Positions 46,414 through 57,064 of a stretch of DNA of 64,000 nt are shown here, piece after piece (the stretch's first letter is position 1; each line of letters opens with the position of its first letter). A model generated the notes under the pieces. The model did not search any database. It saw nothing but the letters and a program-made list of their open reading frames with translations, and was not told the origin of the DNA. A program made the position numbers and the translations under genes. Source of the stretch: Pelagibacterium nitratireducens (GTDB taxonomy: Bacteria > Pseudomonadota > Alphaproteobacteria > Rhizobiales > Devosiaceae); NCBI RefSeq assembly GCF_037044555.1, contig NZ_CP146275.1, positions 1,406,501 to 1,470,500 of the forward strand, in the 5' to 3' direction.

Positions 46414-46524
46414 CATAGAGGCCGGCCGAAACGATTTTGCCATCGGGGATCGCTCGTCTAAAGTGCCCGGGCCGCGCTGATGGGGAATCAGAATGCGCTT
46501 CAGGTAGGACAAGGTACTTTCTGC

Positions 46525-47325
46525 ATGCAAGAAACGGGGACCGTCCGGCACGTCAGGGCGCTCTTTATCAGCGACGTCCATCTGGGGATGCAGGCAATTC
46601 AGGTCGAGGAACTCCTCAAGTTCCTGGCGATCCATGAGGCCGATACGATCTATATCGTGGGCGACCTGATCGATGGATGGCGTTTGCAAAAGGAATGGAA
46701 CTGGCCGGCCGAGTACGATGCGCTGGCCAATGTATTGCTCGGCAAGGCACGGGCAGGAGCGCGCATCGTTTATCTTGCGGGCAATCATGACGAGTTCCTG
46801 CGCGATTATCTGGGCACCTATTTCGGCGGCGTCGAAATCGTCGATCGCATGATCCACATCACGGCGGACGGCAAGCGCTATCTGGTGATCCATGGGGACC
46901 AGTTCGACGTTGTCGTCGCCAACGCCAAATGGCTCGCCCATATCGGGGACTGGGCCTATAATTTCGCGCTGACCATCAATGCGCCGATCAACTGGGTACG
47001 CCGTCGTATGGGGCTCAGCTATTGGTCGCTGTCGGCCTGGGCCAAGCAGAAGGTCAAGAGCGCGGTTTCGGTCATGGGGCGGTTCGAGGAAGCGCTGTCG
47101 CTCGAAGCGCGCAATTCCAAGGTCGAGGGGGTGATCTGCGGTCATATCCATCAGGCCGCCATGCACCACAAATTCGGCATTCACTACATCAATTCAGGCG
47201 ACTGGGTGGAAAGCTGCACGGCCATCGTCGAGGGCCATGACGGTGCGTTCGAGCTGATCCGCTGGAAGGACATCTCTGCGCCGCCGCGCAAGCGGCGCGG
47301 GCTGGGCCGGTTGCGGGCAAGCTGA
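46525..47325 (+). CDS. LpxH-like metallophosphoesterase, copy 1
   Basis: A 266-residue calcineurin-fold phosphoesterase. The two-metal motifs are FISDVHLG, VGDLIDGW, LAGNHDEF, IHGDQFD and GHIHQAA, as in UDP-2,3-diacylglucosamine diphosphatases. The segment SLSAWAKQKVK and the Trp-rich NWPAEYD are conserved in the second copy at 48698. Alphaproteobacteria often use LpxI for that lipid A step, so the real substrate is open. ATG 46525 is preferred over 46480. An MFS gene separates it from its paralog. Confidence 0.85.
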   Translation: MQETGTVRHVRALFISDVHLGMQAIQVEELLKFLAIHEADTIYIVGDLIDGWRLQKEWNWPAEYDALANVLLGKARAGARIVYLAGNHDEFLRDYLGTYFGGVEIVDRMIHITADGKRYLVIHGDQFDVVVANAKWLAHIGDWAYNFALTINAPINWVRRRMGLSYWSLSAWAKQKVKSAVSVMGRFEEALSLEARNSKVEGVICGHIHQAAMHHKFGIHYINSGDWVESCTAIVEGHDGAFELIRWKDISAPPRKRRGLGRLRAS

Positions 47326-47419
47326 GTTCTTACGAAATTGACGGTACTTGCCGCTTGCCAGTTCTGGTAGCGCGTGTGCATGGTCGCGTGTCTTTATCTC
47401 GCCTTCCGGATCCTTCCCG

Positions 47420-48640
47420 ATGCTTCCGAGCCTGCCCGAGCGGCTGACGACGCCCGAAATGCGCACGGGCCTGTTCTATGCGGCCATGTATCTGCCGATC
47501 GGCGTCTCGACGCTGCTCTTGCCCGTGTGGCTGGACGGCAGAGGGATCGGGGAAGAGGAAATCGGCATCATCAGTGCGACGCCGATCTTTATCATGATCG
47601 TGCTCAATCTGCTTGTCGGGCGCGTAGCGGACAAGGCCAGCGACTGGCGCGGCGTAATCGTCGCCGGATCACTGGTCAGCGCAGTGGTGTCGCTGGGGTT
47701 TGTTTTTGTCGACGCGTTCTGGGGCATTTTGCTGTTCAACACCTTGCTGGTCATCCCCATCATGGCCATCGAGCCGGTGATCGACGCAGCGGCCATAAGG
47801 ATGACGCGGCGGCGCGGCACCGATTTCGCGCGGGTGCGAATCTGGGGCACATTCGGCTATATCGGCGGGACGGCGCTAGCCGGATGGATGTTTGGCTGGG
47901 TGGGAATCGCCGTGTTCGTGCCGTTGCTGATTGCCACGGCACTGCTGCGCGGGTTATCGGCGCTGCCACTGCCGTTCTTCCGATCGCAAAACGGGGGCGG
48001 GCAAGCCGGTGCGCCGCTGGTGAGTGCGCCCGGAGCCGGCCAGACCCTGCGGCAGGTGGCCAGGCCGTGGTTCGTCCTGACGCTTCTCGGGGCGGCAATA
48101 TTACAGGCCAGCCATATGCTGCTTGTCAGTTTTGGCGCGCTGTTGTGGCTCAGAGCGGGGGTGCCGGAGGCCGCGGTGGGCATATTGTGGATCGTGGCGC
48201 CGGTCTGCGAGATCGTCACCATGCTGTTCTTTTCCCATCTCGCACGGCGGTTTTCGGCCCGGCATCTGCTGCTCGCGGCCTGTGTCAGCGGCGTCCTGCG
48301 CTGGATCGGAATGGCGTATGCAACCGATGTCTGGCAGTTGGTCTTGTTGCAGGCGCTGCACATGATGACGTTCGGGCTGGCCTATATGGGCATTGTCACC
48401 TTCATCGCCAATTGGACGAGCGAGGAAATCGCGGCCCAGGCGCAGAGCTTTTATGTTGTCATGAAGCAGATCTGCTCGGTCGTTGCGCTGCTGTTTTTCG
48501 GGACGCTGGTAGCCCATTTCGGATTGCAGAGCTTCTGGGCGGCGGGGCTGCTTTCGGCGATCGGCGCAGGCATGATCCTGATTTCGCTCTCGATCTGGTC
48601 GACCAAAGCGCAAAACGAGTCGCGCCCGCTGTCACAATAG
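47420..48640 (+). CDS. MFS transporter (MFS_1-like / nucleoside-proton symporter type)
   Basis: A 406-residue protein with twelve predicted helices. It shows FYAAMYLPIGVSTLLLPVWLDGRGI at the start, RVADKASDWR as the loop 2-3 motif, RIWGTFGYIGGTALAGW in helix 5, and a long loop with QNGGGQAG between halves, resembling the MFS_1-like group including NupG and 3-phenylpropionate transporters. Substrate unknown. ATG 47420 (MLPSLPERL) is used; the upstream frame belongs to intergenic DNA. It sits between two LpxH-like paralogs. Confidence 0.85.
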   Translation: MLPSLPERLTTPEMRTGLFYAAMYLPIGVSTLLLPVWLDGRGIGEEEIGIISATPIFIMIVLNLLVGRVADKASDWRGVIVAGSLVSAVVSLGFVFVDAFWGILLFNTLLVIPIMAIEPVIDAAAIRMTRRRGTDFARVRIWGTFGYIGGTALAGWMFGWVGIAVFVPLLIATALLRGLSALPLPFFRSQNGGGQAGAPLVSAPGAGQTLRQVARPWFVLTLLGAAILQASHMLLVSFGALLWLRAGVPEAAVGILWIVAPVCEIVTMLFFSHLARRFSARHLLLAACVSGVLRWIGMAYATDVWQLVLLQALHMMTFGLAYMGIVTFIANWTSEEIAAQAQSFYVVMKQICSVVALLFFGTLVAHFGLQSFWAAGLLSAIGAGMILISLSIWSTKAQNESRPLSQ

Positions 48641-48697
48641 AGTTGCGCAAATCAGGCATTCGAACAGTCGCGAGCCAACAGCCTTGCGGTACGGTCG

Positions 48698-49501
48698 ATG
48701 CATTCCGCACAAAAACCACTTCAGTTGCGCGCTCTGTTTATCAGCGATACGCATCTGGGTATGCGCGGCGCCCAGGCGGGCGCATTGCTGGATTTTCTGC
48801 AATCGGTCGAGGCCGACTGCATCTATCTGGTCGGCGATTTCGTCGATGGGTGGAAGCTGAAGAAGAGCTGGTACTGGCCGCCGGCCTGCAACCGGGTCAT
48901 CCAGCATTTGCTCGACTGCACGCGCAAGGGCGCGCGCATCGTTTATGTACCGGGCAATCACGATGAATTCCTGCGCGAATTCGCAGCGCTCCGGTTTGGC
49001 GGCATAGACGTTCGCGAACGGGCCGTCCATACCGGCGCAAACGGGCAGCGCTATCTGGTCATCCATGGAGATCAGTTCGACGTCGTCGTGCGTCATGCGC
49101 GCTGGGTCTCGTGGCTGGGGGATATTTCCTACAATCTGGCACTGCGCGCCGCCATGCTGATCAACCGGGTGCGCCAGAAACTTGGCCGCCCGCGCTGGTC
49201 GCTTTCGGCCTGGGCACGGGCCAATGTGAGCCGGGCTGCAGCGCTCGTCGAGCGGTTCGAGACGGCGTTGGTGCGCGAAGCGGCGGAGCAGGGATTTGAC
49301 GGCGTGGTGTGCGGGCATATCCATGCCGCGGCTATCGCCGACCATGGGAGCGTCACCTATCTCAATTGCGGTGACTGGGTCGAGAACTGCACAGCCATCG
49401 TGGAGACAAGGGACGGGCGGTTCGAGTTGATCCGCTGGGTCGAAAAGACCGTGCCCAGTTCCCAGGCGGTTGCGCCTCTTGCCCAGGAGGTCACCCCATG
49501 A
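48698..49501 (+). CDS. LpxH-like metallophosphoesterase, copy 2
   Basis: A 267-residue paralog of the protein at 46525-47325, colinear with it over the whole length (FISDTHLG, VGDFVDGW, PGNHDEFLRE, IHGDQFDVVV, SLSAWARANV, GHIHAAA, GDWVENCTAIVE). The metal ligands are intact. Its stop overlaps the glycosyltransferase start by 4 bp, so this copy is translationally coupled with a GT4 enzyme, which suggests a glycolipid substrate. Confidence 0.87.
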   Translation: MHSAQKPLQLRALFISDTHLGMRGAQAGALLDFLQSVEADCIYLVGDFVDGWKLKKSWYWPPACNRVIQHLLDCTRKGARIVYVPGNHDEFLREFAALRFGGIDVRERAVHTGANGQRYLVIHGDQFDVVVRHARWVSWLGDISYNLALRAAMLINRVRQKLGRPRWSLSAWARANVSRAAALVERFETALVREAAEQGFDGVVCGHIHAAAIADHGSVTYLNCGDWVENCTAIVETRDGRFELIRWVEKTVPSSQAVAPLAQEVTP

Positions 49502-50523
49502 CGCGGCTGCTGATTGTATCGGATGCGTGGCATCCGCAGGTAAACGGTGTCGTGCGTTCGCTTGAAAACGTTGGCAACACGCTGGCGCGGCGCGGCTATG
49601 AGGTGAGATATCTCACCCCCGAGCCGTTCTGGACGCTGCCCTTGCCGACGTATTCGGAAATCCGGGTGCCGCTGCCATCGCTGCGGGTGGTGCAGGATAT
49701 GATCGCCGATTTTGCGCCCGACCATATCCACATTGCCACAGAAGGTCCGCTGGGGTTGGCCGCACGAACACTTTGCGTGACGGGCGAGCTTGCCTTCACG
49801 ACCAGCTATCACACGCGCTTTCCCGAATATCTGGCGGCACGCTTGCCCGTGCCGGTCGAGTGGAGCTATGGCTATCTGCGCTGGTTTCATGCCGCCGCAT
49901 CGGCGACCATGGTGCCCACGCCCTCGGTTCTCAAACACTTGCGGCGGCGGTTCTTCCGTCACCTCGCCGTCTGGTCGCGGGGGGTGGACCTTTCAGCCTT
50001 CAGCCCCGGACCCAAGGCGATGTTTGCGGGTCTGCCGGGGCCGCATCTTCTCTATGTCGGGCGGGTCGCGGTCGAGAAAAACATCGAAGCGTTTCTCGAG
50101 CTGAAGCATCCCGGCACCAAAATCGTTGTTGGAGACGGCCCGGAGCGGGGGGCTCTCATGCACCGTTTTCCCGATGTCGTCTTTACCGGGCAGTTGACGG
50201 GCGCAGCGCTGCGGGATGCCTATCGCAGTGCCGATGTTTTCGTCTTCCCCTCGCGCACCGACACCTTCGGCAATGTCATGCTCGAATCCATGGCCTGCGG
50301 CACGCCCGTTGCTGGCTATCCCGTGATGGGCCCAATCGATGTGATCGGGACGGGCAAGGGCGGGGCGCTGGAAGACGACCTGGCGTCGGCCGTTAAGCGG
50401 GCGCTATCCATTCCGCGCTCCGAGGCGATTTCCAGAGCAAAGGAATTCACCTGGGAGGCCGCTGCCGACCAGTTTGCGCGGCGGCTTGCGCCGATCCGTT
50501 CCCGTGTCGGCATCGCTGCATAA
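49498..50523 (+). CDS. GT4 family glycosyltransferase
   Basis: A 341-residue GT-B enzyme. The N-terminal domain begins LLIVSDAWHPQVNGVVRSLENV; the C-terminal donor-binding domain has YVGRVAVEKNIEAFL, VVGDGPERG and FPSRTDTFGNVMLESMACGTPV, the family 4 EX7E region. It resembles mannosyl- or glucosyltransferases acting on diacylglycerol or phosphatidyl lipids. It overlaps the LpxH-like gene by 4 bp, and together they are a recurrent alphaproteobacterial pair, probably for a membrane glycolipid. A terminator follows. Confidence 0.9.
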   Translation: MTRLLIVSDAWHPQVNGVVRSLENVGNTLARRGYEVRYLTPEPFWTLPLPTYSEIRVPLPSLRVVQDMIADFAPDHIHIATEGPLGLAARTLCVTGELAFTTSYHTRFPEYLAARLPVPVEWSYGYLRWFHAAASATMVPTPSVLKHLRRRFFRHLAVWSRGVDLSAFSPGPKAMFAGLPGPHLLYVGRVAVEKNIEAFLELKHPGTKIVVGDGPERGALMHRFPDVVFTGQLTGAALRDAYRSADVFVFPSRTDTFGNVMLESMACGTPVAGYPVMGPIDVIGTGKGGALEDDLASAVKRALSIPRSEAISRAKEFTWEAAADQFARRLAPIRSRVGIAA

Positions 50524-50579: not shown

Positions 50580-53500
50580 TCAGTTCAACCGGCCGCTGGC
50601 ATGGGCGAGCATAGTATAGACCTTGCCACGGTTGCTCACGAGCTGGTTGAAGGTCTGCTGCATGCCATTGGGGCCGTTGGCAGCTTCGCCGAGCAATTGC
50701 TCGAATTCGCTCATATAGGCTGTTGCCGTGCGCGAGAATTCGGGATCGCGCTGGAGCTTGCGGCGCACCTCGTCGAAGGTCGACTGACCGGTGATTGTGT
50801 AGAGCCGGCGGTTGAAAGCGCCCGATTCCCCATCCTGATAGCGGTTCCAGGCGGCAGCGAGGGCATCGTCGTCGATGGCGCGGGCGATATCTTCGGTCAG
50901 GCTCGAAAGGTTCAGCGGGCGCTGGGTGCCGGCCTGCTGGCTGGCCGAAGCGTTGCGCAGGACATCACGCAGCCATCCGCCTTCCTGGGGTGCGGCGGCG
51001 GAGGCCGGCTGTTGGGAGGCGGTTCCGCGTGACTGGGTGAGCGCTTCGTTGAGCCGCTCGGACGGCGATTTTTGAGCCTCTGCCGGGCGTGGCTGGGTCA
51101 TCACAGGTGCCTGCTGGCGCGTCGGCTCAGGCTGACGGGCAGGAGCGGGGCGTGCGGGCTGATGAGGTGCCGGTTCGGCCGACCGGGTCGGTTCGGCAGC
51201 GGCAAGGCGTGCCGAGGGCGTGCGCGGCGTTGCGCGGCTGGACACTTCATGGGTGCCCGGCTGGGCACGCACGATGGCATTGAGCTCGGACAACGCCTCG
51301 ATCTGTTCGGCAACCACGCGGCGCATTGCCGCCGCGCTGGCCCGGGTTTCTTCGGGCAGGTCGAGTACGGAACGCTGCAATTCGTTGCGGGTCGCTTCGA
51401 GTTCCTGGCCGAGCTGAGATGCGGTGGTGCGCATGGCATCGGCGGTGTCGCCAAACCGGCGGGTAGCGTCCGAGTAAGCGCGCTCGATATCGGCGAGGAG
51501 GTCGGCCTGGGTCTGGCGCAGGGCGTCGCTGGCCCGTTGCCCTTCGCCCGAGGCGAGGTCGCCAATTGTCGAAATCTGGCCGGTGACGGCATCCGATGTC
51601 GAGGCAAGAGCCTCTTCCATGGCCTTGCGGGCCGCAATCAGGCGGCGCTCGGTCTGGTTGACCGTTTCGGCGATCGACTGGGCGAAACCGCGCAGGCGGC
51701 TGTCGATTTCCTCGGTGCGGACCGCAAAACCTTCGGCAAGCGATTCCATGGCGCCACGGCGGTTTTCCAGGGTGTCCATCGTGGAGTTGGATACTTCGGC
51801 AAGGTTGGCGGCGGCATCGGTGAAGCCGGCGGTCTCGGAGTCCAGCTTGCCCGAGAGCTGGCCGAACTGTTCGAGCATTGCAGACATGGTGTTCTGCAGC
51901 GCTTCGACGTGCTGGCTCATCATCGTTCCAGCCTCTTCGGTGCCGGCCATCGCGTCGCGAACGGCGCTCGTATAGGCCTGCGTCTGCTCGCCGACATTGC
52001 CCTGCAGGCGGGCCAGATTGCCGGTCGAGGCTTCCAGAACGCGCTGGAGCAGCAAATTGGCATCGTTGAGCTTGCGCAGCGAGTCGGTGATCTCGTGCTG
52101 AATGCGATTGGACGATTCCGACATGATGTCTTCGGCGTCGCGAGCATTGGCTTCGAGCGCAGCGCGCAGCAGGTTGGTCTGGCTGCCCAGTGCGTTGGTG
52201 AGCTGGTTCTGCTTGGTGTCGATGAGTTCGGCGAAACGGTCGGTGTGTTCGGAGACGATCCGGTTGATCTCGGAAGCCTTGCGGCCCAATTCGTCCGCCG
52301 TAGCGACGGCGCGCACTTCCACCAGATCCTCGATATGAACCGAGGCAACCTTGAGCTCTTCCATGGCCTTGCGGACCACCGCGTCCATCCGCATGGCGGT
52401 CTGTTCGACGTCGGCGGAGATGTTGGCCGTGACGTTGGCCAGCTTGTCGTTGAGCACCTCTTCGATCCGGCTGGCGCCGGTTTCAAGGTCGGACATGGAC
52501 TGGCCGATGGCGCTGTGGATCGAGCCGGTGAGGGTGGATTCGATGCGATCTGCGCCGCTTTCGAGGTCGCGCATGGAATCGGTGATCGTGCCGTGGATGG
52601 CCTCGTTGAGGCCGGCCAGGCGCTCGGCGGTGATTTCGGCGCGGGTGGTGATCGCTTCGGGCAGGGTGCCCAGGCGGTCATCGACCATCTCGGTAATTGC
52701 GCTGCGGGCTTCGGTGAGGCGTGCTTCGACGAGGTCGGCGGCATCGCGGGCGCTCTGACCGACCGAAGTCGCGGCCTCGCCGATCCTGGCGGTGACACCG
52801 GATTCCGCGCCGCTGATCTTGTCGACTGCGGCGTCGATTTCACGGCCGATATTGGAATTGAGTTCGGCCACCTTGCTTTCGATGAGCTCGGACATTTGGG
52901 CCGAACGACTTTCCATCGTCTCGGTGACATTGGTCAGGCTGCCATCGATTGTGAGGCGGATGCGCTCGCCCGAAGCGTCGACCGCCGTGGTGAGTTCGCT
53001 CGTCTTGCCGGAAATCGACTCCGCCATGAGGCGGGCTTTTTCGTCGAGCGATTCTTCGAGGCCGCGGGCCTGGCCCGTGATCGAACGCTCGAGGCGTTCT
53101 GCGGACTCATCGATCAACCCGCCCATATAGCGGGTGCGCTCGGTCAGCGTTTCCGAGAGCTGGTTAGAGGTGATGTCGAGCATCGAATTCATCGCATTGG
53201 CGCGCTCGGCCAGGGTGTCGTCGAGCTGAGTGGTGCGCGCCGAGAGTGCGGTATCGAGCTGCTCGGTGCGCGCATCGAGCGCGGAGGTCAGCTGTTCGCT
53301 GCGGCTGTCGAGTGCCGAGGTGAACTGTTCGGTTCTTCCATCAAGGGCAGACGTGAAGGTTTCGGTTCGGCCGTCAAGGGCCGCCGTAAGGTGCTCGGTG
53401 CGGCTGTCGATGGCCGACGTCAGATTGCCTGTGCGACTTTCAATGGCCGACGCGATTTCCTCGGCGCGGCCATCAAGGGCGGCACCGATCTGTTCGGCCC

Positions 53501-55883
53501 GACCGTCAAAGGCGGATGTGAGCGCTTCGGTGCGAATGTCGAGGCTGGAATTGAGCGCGTCCGCGCGCGTGTCGAGTGCAGCGGACAGGGCATCGGTGCG
53601 CAGATCGACGGCCGATGTAATGGCCTCGGCACGCGCATCGAGGGCTTCGGTGAGGGCCGCGGTCTTGGCGTCGGCCATGGCGCCAAAGCTTTCGCCGCCG
53701 GTCTCGAGGGCACTGGCAAGGGCGCGGCCCTTGTCGTCGAGCAGTGTTTCGAGCCTGTTGGACCGCTCGGCGATCTCGGAGGTGTGGGCATCGAGCGAGG
53801 AGACGAGCTTTTCGCCCTTTTCGCCCACGATGGTGTCGACCTGGCCGATGCGGCTGTCGAGAATGACAGAGATTTCATCGACCCGCGCGTTGAGCTGGGC
53901 CAGAGTATCGGTTCCGGCCCGGGTCAGGATGTCGCGCGTCCGCTCGGTCGATTCCTCAAGCGCGCCATCCAGCCGCAGGCTCATGGATTCGATCTGGCTC
54001 TGGAGGGCGTTGGACTGGATCGAGAAGGTCTCATCGAGCCGATTGGTGATCCGGCTCAGGGTTGCCTCTGCCTCTTCGGCGCGGCTGGCGATCCCGTTGG
54101 AGACCGTTTCGCCCAGAGCCGTAAAGCTGGTCCCGAGAGCTTCGGAACGGCGCGAGAAATCCACGAGGATGGATTCGGTCGATCCCTTGAGGACGTCGCC
54201 GATGGTGGCCGATTTTTCTTCGATGGCCGCCGAAAACGAGATCGTGTGAGAATCGAGGGAATTGACCAGCGTGTTGATGCGTGTGTCGACCATCTCGGTG
54301 ACTTCGCTGGCCCGCTGATCCAGCGCTTCGGTCAAGGCATCGGTACGACGTCCGAAGGCGGACTCGATGTTTTCCACGCCCATGCCCAGCGCGTCGGCGA
54401 GCGCTTCGGCACGGCCCTCGAATGCAGCCCGAACCTCGGCAACGCCGGTTCCCAGGGCATCGGCGAGTGCATCGGCACGACCGGCAAACGCAGCCTGTAC
54501 GTCCTCGACGCCGGTGCCAAGAACCTTTGCAATCGCCTCCGCACGGCCCTCGAAGGCGGTTTCGATGCGCCCGACGCCGGCGCCCAGAGCGTCTTCGAGA
54601 ATTTGGTTGCGGCTATCGAGCGCGTTGGTGAGATCGGCCGTTCTGGTGTCGAACAGGGTGTTGAGCGCGCCCGTCGTGTCGCTGAGCGCGGTTTCCACCA
54701 TGTTTGAATGCCCTTCGAGCGCGATCTGGACGCTCGAGGCACTGGAGGTGAGTACGGTGTCGAGACGGTCGGTCGAGGTGTCGATGGCGCTGGCCAGCGC
54801 CTCGGCCCTGTCGGTCAGCGTGCCGTCGAGGCGGCCGGCGCTGTCGTCGAGCGCCATGATCAGATCGGCGGTGCGGCCCTCGATGGTTTCGGCAAAGCTC
54901 TGCGAGCGGCGCTCGAAGGTGGTTTCGATTGTGGTTCCGGCCGTTTCGATCGATTCCGTCATCGCCGTTGCGCGATCGGAAAGCGCCTGGGTGATTTCGC
55001 CGCCGGTGGTCTTGAGGCGGTCGGTGATCGAGGTGCCGATCTCGTTGAGATCGGTTGTTACATTGCCGTGCACGGCCGCGATGGCCTCGCGCATGCGCTC
55101 GGAATTGGTGACGACGGCGTCGCGCTGGCTGGCCAGTTCCTCGATCAACTGGCGCATGCGCGTCTCGTTGTCGGAATAGGTGCGCTCAAGGGCGGTCACT
55201 TCGTTGTGGACCATCACTTCGAGCTCTCCGGCGCGCGAGAGGGCGCGTTCAAGCCCGTCGCCGATGGCGTTGACCTCGCGGCGCACGGCCTGGCCGACGG
55301 TTGCGATCTTATGGGCGGCGGCCGATTCGGGCTCGGTCAGGCGCATGGCGGCCTGGGTCATCGAAGCGGCGGCGAGGCGCAGATCCTGGGCGCGGCGCAC
55401 AAGGAAGGCAATGGAAATCATTGCCAGAATGGGGAGCGCGGTAATCGCGGCGAGGGCTGCAAAATCAAGGCTCTGGACGAACTCTGCGACCGAAAGCCCT
55501 TCGGTGAAACGCGGGCCATAGCGGAGCACGGCGATCAGGCCGACGCCGACCAGCCAGAGCAGGGACGCGGTTATGGCAAACCAGATCGGCGCGTTCGAGG
55601 CGCGCGACTGGAGGGCGTAAAGAGCGGATGCGGCGGTGGAGCGGTCGTCATTGGCGACCGAGGACGCCTGGGCGGCGATCTTGTCGGCGGCACGCAGGCG
55701 TTCGGTGTTGGTGGGGGCCTCGCGGCGCTGTTCGCGCTTGGGCTCGCGGTTTGCCGGCTGGCTTTCTACCTTGCGGGCGGGCTTGTCATCCATCGAGAAG
55801 ACCGAGTCCTTGAGTGCGTTTTCGACAGCTGAAAACGCAAGCGCTGCCGGATCGTCCTTGGGTGGGGTCGACTTGTTCGCCAT
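50580..55883 (-). CDS. Giant coiled-coil polar growth protein (growth pole ring, GPR-like)
   Basis: A 1767-residue protein. Residues 1-90 are polar and charged; two transmembrane helices lie at ~98-120 and ~140-162; residues ~165-1550 are helical and largely built from 11-residue repeats; a Pro/Gln-rich linker covers ~1560-1634; and a compact conserved domain ends the protein (1635-1767, from GGWLRDVLRN to SGRLN). In block 337-710 the repeat unit is 22 residues, 17 times without gaps; in 743-1017 it is 11 residues, 25 times (xLTSALDxRTE). The size, membrane anchor and apolipoprotein-like repeats match the Agrobacterium growth pole ring protein, which organises unipolar growth; homology is inferred from architecture. 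It is transcribed away from an Hpt gene, with a CtrA-type site between them. Confidence 0.78.
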   Translation of the reverse strand: MANKSTPPKDDPAALAFSAVENALKDSVFSMDDKPARKVESQPANREPKREQRREAPTNTERLRAADKIAAQASSVANDDRSTAASALYALQSRASNAPIWFAITASLLWLVGVGLIAVLRYGPRFTEGLSVAEFVQSLDFAALAAITALPILAMISIAFLVRRAQDLRLAAASMTQAAMRLTEPESAAAHKIATVGQAVRREVNAIGDGLERALSRAGELEVMVHNEVTALERTYSDNETRMRQLIEELASQRDAVVTNSERMREAIAAVHGNVTTDLNEIGTSITDRLKTTGGEITQALSDRATAMTESIETAGTTIETTFERRSQSFAETIEGRTADLIMALDDSAGRLDGTLTDRAEALASAIDTSTDRLDTVLTSSASSVQIALEGHSNMVETALSDTTGALNTLFDTRTADLTNALDSRNQILEDALGAGVGRIETAFEGRAEAIAKVLGTGVEDVQAAFAGRADALADALGTGVAEVRAAFEGRAEALADALGMGVENIESAFGRRTDALTEALDQRASEVTEMVDTRINTLVNSLDSHTISFSAAIEEKSATIGDVLKGSTESILVDFSRRSEALGTSFTALGETVSNGIASRAEEAEATLSRITNRLDETFSIQSNALQSQIESMSLRLDGALEESTERTRDILTRAGTDTLAQLNARVDEISVILDSRIGQVDTIVGEKGEKLVSSLDAHTSEIAERSNRLETLLDDKGRALASALETGGESFGAMADAKTAALTEALDARAEAITSAVDLRTDALSAALDTRADALNSSLDIRTEALTSAFDGRAEQIGAALDGRAEEIASAIESRTGNLTSAIDSRTEHLTAALDGRTETFTSALDGRTEQFTSALDSRSEQLTSALDARTEQLDTALSARTTQLDDTLAERANAMNSMLDITSNQLSETLTERTRYMGGLIDESAERLERSITGQARGLEESLDEKARLMAESISGKTSELTTAVDASGERIRLTIDGSLTNVTETMESRSAQMSELIESKVAELNSNIGREIDAAVDKISGAESGVTARIGEAATSVGQSARDAADLVEARLTEARSAITEMVDDRLGTLPEAITTRAEITAERLAGLNEAIHGTITDSMRDLESGADRIESTLTGSIHSAIGQSMSDLETGASRIEEVLNDKLANVTANISADVEQTAMRMDAVVRKAMEELKVASVHIEDLVEVRAVATADELGRKASEINRIVSEHTDRFAELIDTKQNQLTNALGSQTNLLRAALEANARDAEDIMSESSNRIQHEITDSLRKLNDANLLLQRVLEASTGNLARLQGNVGEQTQAYTSAVRDAMAGTEEAGTMMSQHVEALQNTMSAMLEQFGQLSGKLDSETAGFTDAAANLAEVSNSTMDTLENRRGAMESLAEGFAVRTEEIDSRLRGFAQSIAETVNQTERRLIAARKAMEEALASTSDAVTGQISTIGDLASGEGQRASDALRQTQADLLADIERAYSDATRRFGDTADAMRTTASQLGQELEATRNELQRSVLDLPEETRASAAAMRRVVAEQIEALSELNAIVRAQPGTHEVSSRATPRTPSARLAAAEPTRSAEPAPHQPARPAPARQPEPTRQQAPVMTQPRPAEAQKSPSERLNEALTQSRGTASQQPASAAAPQEGGWLRDVLRNASASQQAGTQRPLNLSSLTEDIARAIDDDALAAAWNRYQDGESGAFNRRLYTITGQSTFDEVRRKLQRDPEFSRTATAYMSEFEQLLGEAANGPNGMQQTFNQLVSNRGKVYTMLAHASGRLN
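52833..53657 (-). repeat. Twenty-five in-phase 33-bp coding repeats inside the growth-pole protein
   Basis: 825 bp encoding 25 consecutive 11-residue units (consensus xLTSALDxRTE) with no insertion or deletion. The units nearest 53250-53500 are most alike in DNA, suggesting recent duplication; those towards 52833 are diverged. Confidence 0.85.
53754..54875 (-). repeat. Seventeen in-phase 66-bp coding repeats inside the growth-pole protein
   Basis: Residues 337-710 divide into 17 units of exactly 22 residues, many starting R(A/T)(E/D)AL; for example three near-identical units at residues 447-512. A slip of phase separates this block from the 11-residue array at 743-1017. Confidence 0.75.
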
Positions 55884-56095: not shown

Positions 56096-56206
56096 CGATT
56101 TTTTTCGTGTACCCACCAGGGCTGAAAATATAGCAGATATCAGCGATTAAGGGTCTTTTTATCCAATCAGGGTTAAGCTGGCGGTAGTGATTGTGACGAT
56201 TGCGTG

Positions 56207-56599
56207 ATGGTGGGAAAGATGATGCAGCCGCGGGTGGGGGTGAGCCTCGATTCTTTGAAAGTGGACAGGACCAACCGGCCGATCGATCTGGTGCATCTGG
56301 CGCGTCAGACGCTGGGGGACAGGGCGCTGGAATGCGAAGTGTTGCGCATGTTTGAAAAGCAGGTCGCGATCTATTTCGAGCGGGTGAGCGCTGCGACCGA
56401 TCCCCATGAAATAACCCTTGGACTTCATACGCTTAAGGGTGCCGCGCAGGGCATTGGCGCCATGGTTCTGGCCTCCCAGGCGCGGGCGGCGGAAGTCGAA
56501 TTTGCCCGTGACGGCAAGCTCGACGAGGAGACGCTGGCCGATCTGGGCATGGCGGTTTCCGAGGTGTGCGGATACATTTCATCGATCGTTTCGGACTGA
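56207..56599 (+). CDS. Hpt domain phosphotransfer protein
   Basis: A 130-residue single-domain protein with the histidine phosphotransfer signature LGLHTLKGAAQGIGAMVLA, where the His is the phosphorylated residue and Lys-Gly follow as in Hpt domains; flanking helices are ALECEVLRMFEKQVAIYFERV and LADLGMAVSEVCGYISSIV. It would relay phosphate between a hybrid kinase and a response regulator. It is an orphan here. The start is uncertain: GTG 56204, ATG 56207, or ATG 56219/56222 with GGGAAAG upstream. It diverges from the growth-pole gene. Confidence 0.8.
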   Translation: MVGKMMQPRVGVSLDSLKVDRTNRPIDLVHLARQTLGDRALECEVLRMFEKQVAIYFERVSAATDPHEITLGLHTLKGAAQGIGAMVLASQARAAEVEFARDGKLDEETLADLGMAVSEVCGYISSIVSD

Positions 56600-56627: not shown

Positions 56628-56743
56628 CCATGGACTTGTGCGTTCGGTAGCCCCACATTTGCGTTTGTTGATGCGCTTGTGTGTGCGGGATGGTTTTCCT
56701 ATATCCGGGGCACCTCACAGATTTATCCCCGGAGCCCTTTTCC

Positions 56744-57064
56744 ATGCCTATGATCACGTTCGTTGAACCCGATGGCGCGCGCCGCGAAGTCGAAGCGGAA
56801 AATGGTGCGACACTGATGGAGACGGCGATCCGCAATGGGGTGCGCGGCATCGTGGCCGAGTGCGGCGGGGCGTGTACCTGCGCGACGTGCCATGTGTATG
56901 TGGAAGAGGAATGGTATGGGGTGACGGGCGGCCCCTCCTCGATGGAAGAGGACATGCTCGATTTCGCTTTCGACGTCAAAGACACCAGCCGGCTTTCATG
57001 CCAGATCAAGATCCGCGACGATCTCGATGGGCTGGTCGTGAACGTGCCGAGCCGCCAAGGGTAG
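56744..57064 (+). CDS. [2Fe-2S] ferredoxin (adrenodoxin type)
   Basis: A 106-residue ferredoxin. The cluster ligands are in AECGGACTCATCHVYV (C-x5-C-x2-C) and the fourth Cys in RLSCQIKI, spaced as in adrenodoxin/FdxB ferredoxins. The acidic partner-binding patch SSMEEDMLDFAFD lies between. These proteins feed electrons to P450s, Fe-S assembly or haem synthesis. ATG 56744 has GGAG 9 nt upstream. It stands alone, followed by a repeat and a terminator. Confidence 0.92.
   Translation: MPMITFVEPDGARREVEAENGATLMETAIRNGVRGIVAECGGACTCATCHVYVEEEWYGVTGGPSSMEEDMLDFAFDVKDTSRLSCQIKIRDDLDGLVVNVPSRQG

Follow-up and report, generated by a model that had tools for sequence, protein, structure and literature searches.

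The window analysed here is a 64,000-nucleotide stretch of the Pelagibacterium nitratireducens genome. On its reverse strand, an intact open reading frame (50580..55883) encodes a protein of 1,767 residues, and all the features of this protein are given below on that strand. A hydrophobicity scan placed two membrane helices near the N-terminus, as originally predicted, at residues 102-120 (55524..55580) and 144-162 (55398..55454). They are followed by a conserved N-terminal stretch, predicted to be cytoplasmic (residues 163-263, 55095..55397), that matches across the homologous loci and in RgsE. The rod comes next. Its 11-residue (hendecad) pattern runs in a first register at residues 264-710 (53754..55094, a = 0 mod 11) and in a second register at residues 711-1271 (52071..53753, a = 7 mod 11). 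The first register holds the 22-residue units of the original prediction and closes with one heptad (residues 704-710, 53754..53774), by which the register is shifted. The array of greatest regularity lies in the second register and has 25 units of 11 residues with the approximate consensus xLTSALDxRTE (residues 743-1017, 52833..53657). In the rod end (residues 1301-1500, 51384..51983) the sequence has no 11-residue periodicity. A proline-rich linker, recognized by its proline density (residues ~1525-1640, 50964..51311), leads to a conserved, all-helical C-terminal domain (residues 1655-1767, 50583..50921). An AlphaFold2 model of this domain was all-helical with a mean pLDDT of 80.7, and a search of solved structures found no close one. 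The gene is single copy in the 3.85-Mb genome. The only other match in this genome was weak, antisense and inside the same gene. Opposite the rod, on the strand of that weak match, lies an open reading frame of 1,211 residues (51072-54707, forward strand), which is most likely a by-product of the repeats and the GC-rich codons.

Upstream, on the forward strand, are a divergent Hpt-domain gene (56204..56599) and a 2Fe-2S ferredoxin gene (56681..57064), both recognized by Pfam. A scan of genome contigs gave at least 596 relatives of the protein, of which the best 80 were taken as loci. Among these 80, some of which are cut short, the Hpt gene was matched in 46 and the ferredoxin gene in 67. An Hpt gene next to that of a polar growth factor is a hint of a connection to a phosphorelay. 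On the other side, the gene adjoins a forward-strand cluster (46480-50523) of two related metallophosphoesterases (46480, 48698), an MFS transporter and a GT4 glycosyltransferase, and parts of this cluster recur near the gene in Devosiaceae loci.

The original prediction was that the protein is a homolog of the Agrobacterium growth pole ring protein. In S. meliloti, A. tumefaciens and Brucella abortus, GPR and its Sinorhizobium counterpart RgsE have been localized to the growing pole (PMC7327166, PMC9938171). They are reported to be cytoplasmic and membrane-anchored, with misshapen cells on their loss (PMC7327166, PMC9938171, PMC8262873), and loss of GPR is reported to disperse wall synthesis (PMC8262873). 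RgsE is given as 2,089 residues long and 42% identical to GPR (PMC7327166). In S. meliloti Ak57 (CP090106.1), found in a plasmid collection, a gene annotated as 'kinesin' encodes a protein of 2,089 residues, and we took it as RgsE (SMc00190) from its length and species. It matched the Pelagibacterium protein in the N domain (41% identity over 77-330, E 2e-49), at the junction of rod and linker (46%, E 3e-10) and in the C domain (53%, E 1e-29). Its transmembrane helices are at 122-140 and 164-182, its rod is a hendecad rod with a period of 3.655, and proline density peaks directly before the C domain in both proteins. The Hpt and 2Fe-2S genes are also upstream of it, arranged as in the window. 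The two proteins differ in that the S. meliloti rod has 297 more residues (exactly 27 x 11) and is less regular, its top lag being 22 at 0.172. The published layout of A. tumefaciens GPR (Atu1348, 2,115 residues) is alike, with two N-terminal transmembrane helices, some 1,700 residues of helix that include PF01442 domains, a proline-rich region at 1890-2000 and an essential C terminus (PMC8262873).

Close and distant relatives share this layout. The protein of Pelagibacterium sp. SP179 is 99.8% identical (1,763 of 1,767 residues), and those of two further Pelagibacterium species are 67% and 70% identical. Residues 1630-1767 retrieved 51 homologs in a search restricted by length, every one with PF01442 and 1,048-1,885 residues long. 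The few named members of this set are from Devosia, Pseudochrobactrum, other Hyphomicrobiales and unclassified alphaproteobacteria. The C-terminal domain of about 130 residues, which had been predicted to be conserved, is kept in these 51 homologs, and in 29 others it is 45-88% identical to that of the Pelagibacterium protein. The N-terminal 330 residues were matched in all of 37 loci with room for the whole gene, taken from the best 80 (of at least 596), with E-values of 1.4e-46 or better and identities of 34-99%. Thus the predicted homology held for N domain, C domain and gene order alike, in a comparison with the RgsE-length protein of S. meliloti rather than with Atu1348. These matches support the view that the protein is the Pelagibacterium ortholog of GPR/RgsE, and it adds a member to an already known family. 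It had also been called shorter than its relative. This is so against RgsE (2,089 residues) and GPR (2,115 residues), but the protein is longer than 170 of 229 homologs in a set from a length-limited search. One might instead suppose an unrelated long coiled-coil protein, such as a ZorA-like stator tail, that resembles GPR by convergence. The ZorA model does match the rod weakly (31.7 bits, E 5e-8), but its curated NCBIfam cut-off is 190 bits, and the S. meliloti protein is strongly similar in both domains outside the rod and shares the gene order. The matches of the N and C domains largely refute such convergence, which is very improbable.

The 11-residue periodicity of the rod is real and extends further than originally claimed. 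At residues 743-1017, sequence identity at a lag of 11 was 0.383, against a mean of 0.090 and a maximum of 0.133 in 200 shuffles, and positions 2 and 6 were both L, I, V, M or F in all 25 units. Hydrophobicity power at 11/3 was 29.9 at 743-1017, 37.3 at 369-742 and 84.9 at 331-1500, against shuffle maxima of 10.0, 10.8 and 11.7 for any period from 3.3 to 4.0 (500 shuffles each). The hydrophobic period over 331-1500 was 3.665 residues. At 7/2, corresponding to the 3.5-residue period of heptads, the power over the same residues was negligible (0.45 vs 84.9), so the rod does not show the period of a heptad, left-handed coiled coil. One lattice of 92 consecutive units in two registers could be followed over residues ~264-1271. 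In 78 units both core positions were hydrophobic, in 14 one was, and no unit lacked a hydrophobic residue at both; the chance of both being hydrophobic is 5.8%. The core has the pattern L..AL..R, in which a and e are L/I/V/M/F, d is mostly A and h mostly R. The rod ends differ, with peaks at 3.62 for 171-368 and at 3.60 for 1301-1500. An 11/3 peak was present in the rods of 221 of 227 homologs.

The array had been described as seventeen 22-residue units and then twenty-five 11-residue units without a single gap. The 25 units at 743-1017 stand, but the register changes once, from 0 to 7 (mod 11), by the heptad at 704-710, and the last ~1.5 of the 22-residue units are out of register. Since this single heptad is what splits the registers, the two arrays are one lattice. 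As for the rod being unusually regular, at lag 11 it ranked second of 229 homologs in a 121-residue window (tied with the near-identical strain) and fourth in a 275-residue window, but at lag 22 only 24th to 30th. The residues repeated at lag 11 had the same codon in 55 of 101 cases (48.5 expected), and those at lag 22 in 39 of 84 (40.4 expected). Because this agreement is close to chance, the pattern does not come from recent copying of DNA and is kept at the protein level.

So far the rod of GPR/RgsE, a protein needed for normal polar growth, has mainly been read as an apolipoprotein. Apolipoproteins have 11/22-residue periodicity, and their 22-residue units are punctuated by proline. The rod could thus act like an apolipoprotein or perilipin, with amphipathic helices on the inner membrane that sort or mark the lipid of the growth pole. 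PF01442 (apolipoprotein A1/A4/E) matched the Pelagibacterium rod in ten stretches with 193.7 bits (cut-off 90) and the S. meliloti Ak57 protein in 12 stretches with 257.8 bits. The authors of PMC8262873 favour a lipid role and read their GPR deletions as apolipoprotein-like. Unlike apolipoproteins, the Pelagibacterium protein is a membrane-anchored giant and net acidic, with a charge of -96 and one proline across the 1,170 residues 331-1500. The charge is -1.57 per 18 residues in the array, and there is no proline in 369-1017, so the rod lacks 22-residue units punctuated by proline. A lipid-binding score computed from charge and moment exceeded its threshold of 0.68 in none of the 258 windows of the array, in 25 of 1,153 over residues 331-1500 and in 38 of 1,433 in the S. 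meliloti rod. Among the 96 relatives outside the order described below, five with 25/7 rods were compared with PF01442. None of the five reached the cut-off, and two matched weakly (31.6 and 39.3 bits), suggesting that a strong PF01442 match follows the lattice more than descent. One of the five (L114) passed the cut-off of ApoLp-III, a separate family of lipid-binding proteins (37.1 vs 36.3 bits). Given the acidic charge and the absence of proline from 369-1017, we read the strong PF01442 match as a probable consequence of the 11/22 lattice, and a lipid-sorting role of the rod seems unlikely. The charge, the missing proline punctuation and the register-locked length changes described next would favour a coiled coil over a helix lying on the membrane. 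The terms hendecad, repeat and 11-residue do not occur in the text of PMC8262873. Among the literature matches listed, no title dealt with hendecads in the GPR/RgsE family.

The rod changes length mainly in steps of eleven. In alignments with the proteins of the two Pelagibacterium relatives, with gaps as placed by the aligner, all gaps in the rod were multiples of 11 (11, 22 and 33 in one; 11, 44, 11, 22 and 77 in the other), and those outside the rod were not. To avoid aligner bias, rod length was also measured as the distance from residue 200 to residue 1480, two anchors that lie beyond the repeat and align without gaps. In 118 homologs the length class modulo 11 was far from uniform (p 8e-18, which overstates the significance because the residue class is inherited); control moduli 7, 9, 12 and 13 gave p 0.08-0.92, and 10 and 18 gave p 0.03. 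We paired 227 of the 229 homologs (two lacked anchors) into disjoint pairs by similarity of the non-rod sequence, with 95 pairs at a distance below 0.3. Rod length differed in 74 of these. The difference was an exact multiple of 11 in 45 pairs (6.7 expected, p 3e-28), and in 26 more it belonged to the 4/7-residue classes. In total 71 of the 74 differences were 0, 3, 4, 7 or 8 modulo 11 (33.6 expected). The 29 differing pairs that are not multiples of 11 count against strict quantization. The linker is not quantized: in the same 95 pairs, only 6 of 87 differences were multiples of 11. Of the pairs at distances of 0.3-0.45, 12 differed in the rod, 6 of them by a multiple of 11, and 13 in the linker, 3 of them by such a multiple. 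With six anchor settings, 62-74 pairs differed in rod length, 38-45 of them by a multiple of 11.

Such steps could also be purely mutational, the regularity and the 11-residue changes coming from unequal exchange between 33-bp repeats with no function beyond keeping the frame. Tandem Repeats Finder did report 33- and 66-bp arrays, and a 22-residue insert in Bosea shares 94% of its nucleotides with each of its flanks. DNA was compared for 22 of 73 possible disjoint close pairs, which had 54 indels in the rod, 45 of them in multiples of 11. Among these 45, the 37 no longer than 66 residues include one near copy of its flanks, and the best flank identity of the other 36 was only 0.39-0.82 in DNA with the aligner's gap placement. 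Moreover, the segment 1260-1480, which is not 11-repetitive in Pelagibacterium, was congruent modulo 11 in 74 of 79 placeable homologs (14 of 17 distinct lengths), and codon agreement in the rod is near chance. Thus a mutational origin of the whole pattern is rather improbable, while part of the quantization could come from repeat-mediated mutation, as in the Bosea insert. Codon agreement did not support recent tandem expansion of DNA as the source of the regularity, with Bosea as one clear exception.

We consider it probable, though well short of certain, that the GPR/RgsE ortholog serves as a membrane-anchored, register-locked, cytoplasmic coiled-coil scaffold for polar growth. The two N-terminal membrane helices would anchor a very long cytoplasmic alpha-helical rod, and the proline-rich linker would join this rod to the helical C-terminal domain. 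The rods may pack side by side through the hendecad core stripe into near-straight, slightly right-handed bundles that make up a polar ring, with the C-terminal domain docking partners in wall synthesis. Eleven residues make exactly three turns, so the length could change in steps of 11 without rotating the rod ends. By arithmetic, a heptad or a 4-residue step would turn the ends by about 33 degrees. We propose that rod lengths may be quantized by selection because 11-residue steps leave both ends facing alike. The stripe is narrow for a coiled coil, as one of the four hendecad core positions, h, is usually Arg and the other three alone are hydrophobic. An alpha helix rises 0.15 nm per residue, and a continuous helix of ~1,330 residues would be ~200 nm long. 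At the same rise 1,700 residues would make a helix of ~255 nm, against the 600 nm given for the 1,700 helical residues of GPR (PMC8262873). The register-locked hendecad reading makes the function of the rod directly testable by deletions of counted residues. The arms of SMC proteins, in work attributed to Buermann from 2017, are reportedly also of tuned length. They resemble the rod as coiled coils with preferred discrete lengths, but they belong to another family and have another repeat length.

The C domain is not confined to the Hyphomicrobiales, the order of the window. Its profile matched 109 of 289 genomes drawn over the Alphaproteobacteria, in open reading frames of 330-2,752 residues, and 99 of the 109 were analysed (the window's own and nine others were left out). 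Two transmembrane helices were predicted in 83 of the 99, one in 10 and none in 6. The rod peaks were at 3.55-3.595 in 80, at 3.595-3.635 in 15, at 3.545 in one and at 3.658-3.663 in three, and these three are exactly the three from the order. The 11/3 rod was found in 0 of the 96 outside the order, most of which were near 25/7. The commonest sequence lag was 25 in 64 of the 99. Fifty-two of the 96 were shorter than 1,045 residues. A published survey with a length limit of +/-50% is reported to have found distant homologs in only two other orders (PMC7327166), perhaps because these 52 fall under its limit. The 25/7 rods show no 25-residue length quantum. Among 72 same-family pairs, which are not independent, 59 were measurable (13 lacked anchors) and 31 differed in length, none by a multiple of 25, four by multiples of 29 (1.1 expected) and four by multiples of 11 (2.8 expected). 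As a negative control for the order, these rods thus showed no enrichment of multiples of 11.

Neither MreC nor MreB was found in the P. nitratireducens genome, and the three hits of the MreB model were two Hsp70 proteins and FtsA. This is consistent with MreB-independent growth. Rgs and MreB homologs have been suggested to be mutually exclusive (PMC7327166). In the Hyphomicrobiales, the C domain was found in 144 of 149 genomes, including all 14 with MreC over the cut-off (L185-L198). Because all 14 carry it, possession of the GPR C domain does not exclude the Rod complex. In the class sample, at least 103 of the 109 C-domain genomes also had an MreC match. A strict tie of the 11/3 lattice to loss of the Rod complex was rejected in a test on 39 of 40 open reading frames (one was dropped for its short rod): three MreC-positive genomes (G319, G320 and G354) have rods of 3.655-3.66, and in MreC-negative genomes rods of 3.62-3.63 (families f144, f167 and f169) and 3.575 (G330) occur. 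Only size correlated with MreC, with at least 1,500 residues in 0 of 14 MreC-positive and 92 of 130 MreC-negative open reading frames, counts from related genomes in which some frames are cut by contig ends. Giant open reading frames do occur in MreC-positive genomes outside the order, and neither lattice nor size maps perfectly.

In a tree of the C domain (162 rows, 128 columns, 42 forks open), the Hyphomicrobiales rows formed one side with a support of 95/84 and one long-branch outsider inside. The 11/3 lattice was present in 49 of the 69 rows on this side and in 0 of the 93 others. The 11/3 label needs 6 changes on the tree, against a mean of 42.6 after shuffling; all three lattice labels together need 14. 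With 6 changes, a single gain of the 11/3 lattice is plausible rather than demonstrated. The wider history can be drawn tentatively as follows. A family of membrane-anchored rods with one conserved C-terminal domain, present across the alphaproteobacteria, would have exchanged a 25-residue lattice (7 turns, 3.57) for an 11-residue one (3 turns, 3.667) at the root of the Hyphomicrobiales, and the new lattice would later have softened in one short-rod subgroup. Length could then evolve in register-neutral quanta of 11 residues, which would have allowed giant rods as polar growth rings where MreB/MreC are missing. The likeness of GPR to apolipoproteins would be a by-product of the lattice rather than a sign of lipid transport. 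Since the label count leaves a single gain short of demonstrated, we hold this history with less than even confidence. The C domain marks a wider alphaproteobacterial family with short members, whose ancestral function is approachable in cells with the Rod complex. In eight open reading frames, including L134, L140, L144 and L172, the leading lag is 29 residues (8 turns), a third lattice beside those of 25 and 11.
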